From: an uncultured bacterium
Lineage (GTDB): Bacteria; Verrucomicrobiota; Kiritimatiellia; CAIKKV01; CAIJXV01
Reading direction: 5' to 3'
Assembly (NCBI GenBank): GCA_903824675.1
Contig: CAIJXV010000004.1
Span: 1 to 51,938, forward strand
DNA length: 51,938 nt
Within the stretch, counting starts at the first letter, position 1; every line of letters starts with the position of its first letter. This document shows positions 30,584-31,733 of the stretch, piece after piece. The notes under the pieces are model-generated. The model was given only the letters and a program-made list of their open reading frames with translations, was not told the DNA's origin and searched no databases. The position numbers and the translations under genes were made by a program.

Positions 30584-30868
30584 ATGCCGCGTTCAGTTAA
30601 AAAGGGGCCGTTTGTCGACGTCAAACTCCTGGCAAAAATCGAGAAGTTGAATCGGGACGGTCAAAAGCGGGTGATCAGGACTTGGTCCCGCCGCTCAATG
30701 ATCGTTCCGGATTTCATTGGACACACTCTGGCTGTTCACAATGGAAAACAGCATGTTCCTGTTTATATTACGGAAAACATGGTGGGCCACCGGTTAGGTG
30801 AGTTTGCGGCGACCCGGACATTCCGTAAACACGGAATGATGACCGATAAGGCGGCGACCCTGACGTGA
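30584..30868 (+). CDS. rpsS: 30S ribosomal protein S19
   Basis: A 94-residue S19: [40 protein letters not shown] and [17 protein letters not shown]. It begins 3 bp after rplB with GGAGAAAATAATTT as the ribosome site. Unusually it is not followed directly by rplV: an exported-protein gene starts 16 bp later. Confidence 0.98.
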
Positions 30869-30884
30869 TGATTGAGGATAAGCG

Positions 30885-31379
30885 ATGAACCTTTTTTGCC
30901 CAGGCCGATGGGGCATGAGGGTGGTGGGGTTGGGGCTCTGGATATGTGCTCAGGGCGTACTGGCGCAAGACGGGGCCGCGACTACGGAAGTTGTGGATTT
31001 GCGCAGACAGGTGAAATACTTGTCGTCGGCTTTGTCGGCGGCTCGAATTGAGGCAGATGCCCGCTCGTCGGTTCAGGGTGCGCGAACGATGATGCCCGTC
31101 AATGGGGATATGGGTGATGGAGGAGGACGGCGGGTACCGGAAAATGTTCGAGTAGCGGATGTGAATGTTGAGTTGCGGATGGTAGTGGTCGGGTCGGGGC
31201 GGCGGCAAGGGGTGGCTCCGGGAATGGTATTTGCGGTGTTACGGGATGGCCGTAGGGTGTCTCGTGTGCGGGTAGTGGATGTGCGACCGGCAGTGGCCGG
31301 TGCGGTTATAGAGGAAACGGTCCCGGGTTTTTTCCCGTTGGCGGGGGACCGGGTTTTGTTGGAAGGACAGCGGGAATAG
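30885..31379 (+). CDS. Predicted exported coiled-coil protein inserted between rpsS and rplV
   Basis: A 164-residue protein that I do not recognise. A signal peptide is likely: a hydrophobic stretch (about 12-26, MRVVGLGLWICAQGVLA) ends with LAQ as a cleavage site. Then comes a short heptad-like segment (about 36-58, VVDLRRQVKYLSSALSAARI), a Gly-rich linker, and a C-terminal beta-rich part (about 85-164) with VRVADVNVELRMVVVGSG, RQGVAPGMVFAVLRDG and VSRVRVVDVRPAVAGAVIEE. That last pattern resembles the small beta domains at the C terminus of FlgT- or MreC-like proteins, but I cannot prove homology. GAGGAT lies 5 nt before the ATG. Codon use looks like its ribosomal neighbours and it is co-directional with tight spacing, so it is probably co-transcribed with them. 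A non-ribosomal exported protein here is exceptional. Confidence 0.82.
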   Translation: MNLFCPGRWGMRVVGLGLWICAQGVLAQDGAATTEVVDLRRQVKYLSSALSAARIEADARSSVQGARTMMPVNGDMGDGGGRRVPENVRVADVNVELRMVVVGSGRRQGVAPGMVFAVLRDGRRVSRVRVVDVRPAVAGAVIEETVPGFFPLAGDRVLLEGQRE

Positions 31380-31391
31380 GTGTGTGATTTT

Positions 31392-31733
31392 ATGGAAGTG
31401 ACAGCGGTAACTAAATTTGTGCGAATCGCGCCGCGTAAGGCGCGCAATCTGGTTCGTGCGATTCAGGGCTTGCCTGTGCCGCAGGCGCTTTTGATTGCCG
31501 AATTCAGTGAACGCAAAGCGGCGCGTTGCATCGGGAAAACGCTCAAGTCGGCGGTGGCCAACGCAGAGAACAACGCCCATTTGTCGGCGGACACTCTACG
31601 GGTGAAAGAAGCCGTCATTGAAGAAGGGCCCGCGTTCAAGCGGTTTTGGCCTCGGGCACGAGGGATGGTGAGCCCGATTCGCAAGCGGACAAGCCATATC
31701 CGCATTACGTTAACCGATCAGCCGGCCGCTTGA
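31392..31733 (+). CDS. rplV: 50S ribosomal protein L22
   Basis: A 113-residue L22 lining the exit tunnel. It starts MEVTAVTKFVRIAPRKARNL; the tunnel loop lies in VKEAVIEEGPAFKRFWPRAR, and SPIRKRTSHIRITLTD ends it. The ATG at 31392 is preferred to a GTG at 31380. It begins 12 bp after the inserted exported-protein gene. Confidence 0.96.
   Translation: MEVTAVTKFVRIAPRKARNLVRAIQGLPVPQALLIAEFSERKAARCIGKTLKSAVANAENNAHLSADTLRVKEAVIEEGPAFKRFWPRARGMVSPIRKRTSHIRITLTDQPAA

Follow-up and report, generated by a model that had tools for sequence, protein, structure and literature searches.

Few gene strings are as conserved in bacteria as the S10 operon. A precedent for an envelope-directed gene embedded among ribosomal protein genes is secY of the spc operon, which is nearly universal and encodes the translocon channel; the gene described here, termed X, sits between the genes rpsS and rplV, is restricted to one phylum within the sample tested, and has a product that is probably periplasmic. 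Among described proteins, FlgT (C-terminal domain, PF16538; PDB 3w1e and 8z5n) is periplasmic, as predicted for X, and has a C-terminal beta domain that X probably resembles in fold, with recurrent sub-threshold sequence matches; FlgT is built of three domains (N-M-C), whereas X has neither the N nor the middle domain but a helical region instead (helix plus one beta domain in the model), and the X locus, unlike that of FlgT, is not flagellar. MreC (PF04085; 9dvb, 6zlv, 2j5u) shares with X an N-terminal hydrophobic segment, a helical coiled coil and a C-terminal beta domain, but X is smaller, has a single beta domain and is encoded outside mreBCD. TsaP (3jc8) has an FlgT_C-like stretch and is periplasmic, as is predicted for X, whereas X has no LysM domain (Pfam scan) and does not lie at a pilus locus. 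The PVC signature protein family CT421.2 (about 53-80 aa, known from each of the four PVC phyla; PMC3444138) is lineage-restricted in the PVC group like X, and by its length is unrelated to X.

The window, i.e. the whole stretch of DNA analysed (51,938 nt), contains the gene order rpsJ-rplC-rplD-rplW-rplB-rpsS-X-rplV-rpsC-rplP-rpmC-rpsQ-rplN, which apart from X is standard. X is an open reading frame of 164 codons with an ATG start (30885..31379, plus strand); homologous genes occupy this position in relatives and elsewhere in the phylum. Its neighbours on the same strand, assigned from the ORF list and the loci of relatives, are rpsS (S19; 30584..30868) upstream and rplV (L22; 31392..31733) downstream. 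The gaps are 16 nt from the end of rpsS and 12 nt from the X stop to the conserved rplV ATG at 31392, ahead of which there is an in-frame GTG at 31380; a likely Shine-Dalgarno sequence (GAGG, 30874..30877, plus strand) is located 7 nt 5' of the X start. The original prediction had thus described the embedding, the small gaps and the ribosome site correctly, and its statement of similar codon use is true only weakly: the GC3 of X (0.61) is similar to that of the neighbouring genes, but its codon score falls near the bottom of the range of the local ribosomal proteins, and in 47 of 84 loci no ribosomal protein of the same locus scores as low as X. Across the homologues, the distance from the X stop to the rplV ATG has a median of 11 nt (85 of 86 loci, where measurable). 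A recognisable Shine-Dalgarno sequence precedes the chosen X start in 11 of 86 loci, which is not above background, and rplV in 50 of 86; the low count for X may be explained in part by the choice of start codon.

The N-terminus of X reads as a Sec signal peptide, MNLFCPGRWGMRVVGLGLWICAQGVLA followed by QD (residues 1-27, predicted cleavage between VLA and QD; 30885..30965, plus strand). A hydrophobic stretch with a positive N-region is found near the N-terminus in 79% of 86 homologues, compared to 6% of shuffled sequences; some of these N-termini look cleaved, others anchor-like. A short coiled coil is predicted for residues 36-59 (30990..31061, plus strand; heptad V36-L39-V43-L46-L50-A53-A57) within a continuous helix in the AlphaFold2 model (residues 7-68), and L46 is invariant in 25 relatives. 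The C-terminal part is a small beta domain with a probably FlgT C-terminal-domain-like fold (residues 84-160; 31134..31364, plus strand), supported by the model, by PDB fold matches and by conserved residues (G105, G109, G113 and R134); residues 88-159 are modelled at a pLDDT of about 97, and the domain alone, with a 70-sequence input, gave the same fold, also at about 97. Export, a short coiled coil and a C-terminal beta domain had all been proposed from the sequence, and each agrees with these predictions. Overall, X homologues range from 111 to about 400 aa, with the beta domain of about 80 residues constant and the helical part variable, from none (several lineages) to long.

X of the window has no Pfam match above the curated cut-off and no match in NCBIfam. 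Within the domain set, FlgT_C is matched more often than any other Pfam family, by 15 of 70 members at E<=0.1 and with a best value of 0.0022, short of the cut-off. The top PDB folds for the beta domain are likewise FlgT (8z5n, 3w1e; Foldseek E=0.008-0.015, TMq 0.58-0.59), followed by rotary-ATPase N-domains, which also contain the same small barrel, and MreC, all of them with Foldseek E-values above 0.001 (range 0.008-0.05). The earlier guess of FlgT/MreC-like domains agrees with these matches at the level of fold, with FlgT as best match and MreC as a weaker one. By sequence, the best PDB match of the domain is TsaP (3jc8, E=0.006), and MreC (9dvb) matches at E=0.00036 over mostly helical residues of X. 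We read the beta domain as a distant FlgT_C-like domain, a resemblance that may not reflect homology. X is not FlgT (no Pfam match above the cut-off, N-M-C architecture absent), TsaP (LysM domain absent) or MreC and, given the export-type N-terminus, is probably not a ribosomal protein. Identity with MreC, or replacement of MreC by X, was rejected: the only PF04085 match in the genome of the window, a separate true MreC, lies on another contig (C73) than X (C4), and one genus (f54/g117) has X and no MreC.

Distribution was examined first in 58 related genomes (E<=0.01), of which 32 contained a relative of X, including 16 of 16 others of the same order; in all 16 the homologue occupies the same position, and the order rpsS-X-rplV was found wherever the operon was intact in the loci inspected. 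A single-protein scan of genome contigs yielded no relatives of X, and the class-level X alignment was too divergent for search patterns, for which reason rplV was used as query instead. For the survey of the phylum, the positions of rpsS and rplV were determined in 145 Verrucomicrobiota genomes (rplV found in 141); many families have rpsS-rplV gaps of 370-1100 nt, and others a split operon. A profile built solely from class-level relatives picked up X 5' of rplV in these families at the first iteration. By a hand count from coordinates, X immediately precedes rplV in 78 of the 141 genomes with rplV, in about 30 families, including Lentisphaera-type genomes; it is also present in Puniceicoccaceae MAGs. 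In families without X, rpsS and rplV are mostly adjacent or nearly so, with gaps of up to about 210 nt that hold no X-like open reading frame. The searches covered Verrucomicrobiota, with Planctomycetota and Chlamydiota outside them. A literature search confined to open-access papers, with neither subscription papers nor UniProt included, gave no account of the gene, and for candidate locus tags the sole hit was an unrelated histidine kinase; this agrees with the earlier statement that no described counterpart was known. The parts of X are of known kinds and, to our knowledge, its phylum-wide position is undescribed.

Pairwise identity distances for the X domain correlate with those for rpsC, rplV and rplP combined (Mantel r=0.80, n=82, 0 of 2000 permutations), hence X probably descends mainly by vertical inheritance from an early ancestor, with repeated losses. 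Values of dN/dS range from 0.09 to 0.64 in pairs with measurable dS (dS was saturated in two pairs) and are usually higher than for rplV. X evolves faster than rplV and, judged from these substitution ratios, is under purifying selection that is weaker than on rplV; absence from all relatives together with a lack of purifying selection, which would have spoken against the original prediction, is not what we find.

Taken together, we give a probability of about one half to the reading that X is a periplasmic protein with a structural or adaptor role whose gene was inserted before rplV early in the history of the phylum, has descended mainly vertically and is represented in S10-linked mRNA. The product would reach the periplasm through a cleaved signal peptide or be held by an N-terminal anchor, the variable helical segment, where it is present, would probably oligomerise it, and the FlgT_C-like domain may bind an envelope partner; export, an oligomerising helix and a partner-binding domain would together point to a structural or adaptor protein, which on the sequence and the model is the most likely role. 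Since X lies inside the S10 operon, or in split operons at the head of the rplV half, its mRNA is expected to follow that of the ribosomal proteins if they are co-transcribed, and the gap of about 11 nt suggests that translation of rplV may partly follow that of X. That about 30 sampled families, with the gut genus Akkermansia probably among their members, have kept X before rplV argues for an envelope component not yet described; X is also a candidate lineage marker.

The most serious rival is that the gene of an ordinary periplasmic protein once landed in the operon, at a position without regulatory meaning that persists as ribosomal operons rarely rearrange; we consider this a possible but less favoured explanation. 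X can be lost or moved, which keeps this explanation in contention: X was lost in many families, in several of them without visible change in the neighbouring genes, and in one genus of family f52 (g123) ten genomes have their best X match somewhere other than at rplV, a count that includes two in which rplV was not detected. The moved copies examined group in the tree near an in-operon f52 relative (L154), and four of them (L195, L197, L199, L200) lie just 3' of an RND efflux pump, with a MarR-type regulator near; location in the operon is therefore not obligatory, and, considering also the losses, neither function nor location is indispensable. The codon use of X, often not ribosomal-like, points in the same direction. 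Against a chance landing stand the deep divergence over which X was kept directly before rplV and its behaviour in split operons: in one genome (G027) X remains with rplV while rpsS is half a megabase off, and in the Lentisphaera-type split operons X is usually the gene just before the rplV-rpsC-rplP half. The break between rpsS and rplV is seen in the Lentisphaera-type families (loci L154-L168; e.g. G292, G307, G367), and arose separately in G027 and in family f24. In the G027 copy (L021, 1300-1520) the 5' part is out of frame following a run of nine T, which points either to a sequencing error or to a frameshift of the G027 gene.

A stronger version of the operon-linked reading, i.e. that the location is functional and X is a dosage link by which a periplasmic scaffold is matched to ribosome output in Verrucomicrobiota, we regard as doubtful; the relocation in g123, the many family losses and a codon adaptation usually below that of ribosomal proteins speak against a strict link between ribosome and envelope. 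The original prediction had proposed that X expression would be tied to ribosome production and may link envelope growth to translation; co-orientation and spacing are the features that speak for such a tie. If the stronger version is true, envelope assembly would follow growth rate without a signalling pathway. X also provides a case for testing whether bacteria scale their envelope through growth-linked transcription of envelope genes.

An accessory role at a secretin or type IV pilus like that of TsaP, or a morphogenesis role like that of MreC, is improbable. The TsaP match in sequence and the MreC matches in sequence and fold favour it, as would the absence of secretins only in family f55, which also has no X before rplV; however, co-occurrence with secretins is uninformative because 141 of 145 genomes have one, many genomes without X carry several secretins, and the LysM domain is missing. 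An MreC-like role is further opposed by the separate MreC in the genome of the window and by the genus f54/g117, in which X (about 236 aa) is found and MreC is not. This genus is probably Akkermansia. In A. muciniphila, S10 is AMUC_RS01735/gene344 and L16 is AMUC_RS01690/gene335 (PMC7671984), i.e. nine locus-number steps compared to eight in the standard order, which implies one extra gene and agrees with this assignment. MreC (PF04085) is missing from all sampled f54/g117 genomes, although 127 of the 145 genomes surveyed in the phylum have it.

By analogy to SecM and MifM, X might also be a secretion-monitoring upstream reading frame, where the export state of nascent X would control rplV translation; the rplV product, L22, lines the ribosome exit tunnel. 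An exported protein encoded about 11 nt 5' of rplV, and kept with it in split operons, would suit such a role, but the conservation sits in the folded domain, relocated copies exist, and the C-terminal residues are the most variable part of X, with no conserved arrest-like motif; because of this variable tail in particular, we consider the role very unlikely. Also very unlikely is that X acts in the cytoplasm, as a factor of ribosome assembly or otherwise associated with ribosomes, and that its hydrophobic N-terminus has been misread. Only the location among ribosomal protein genes speaks for this, whereas even highly diverged members generally have N-termini of the export type and the domain resembles those of periplasmic proteins.

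The same beta domain occurs in two further sets of proteins. The f24 proteins (L125, L129, L177, L174, L179, L181; about 165-220 aa, with signal peptide and coiled coil) adjoin murJ, a lytic transglycosylase gene and ruvB in three genomes; they were first assumed to be relocated X but form a separate clade (support 0.93), so that they may not be orthologous to X and their neighbours were set aside as functional evidence. The other set (family B; L117, L119, L128, L130-L133, L187-L190) is not X and forms its own clade (support 0.88); these uncharacterised proteins (about 240-320 aa) carry a membrane segment at the N-terminus and a long coiled coil, are widespread in the phylum and are encoded elsewhere in many genomes, sometimes as tandem pairs.
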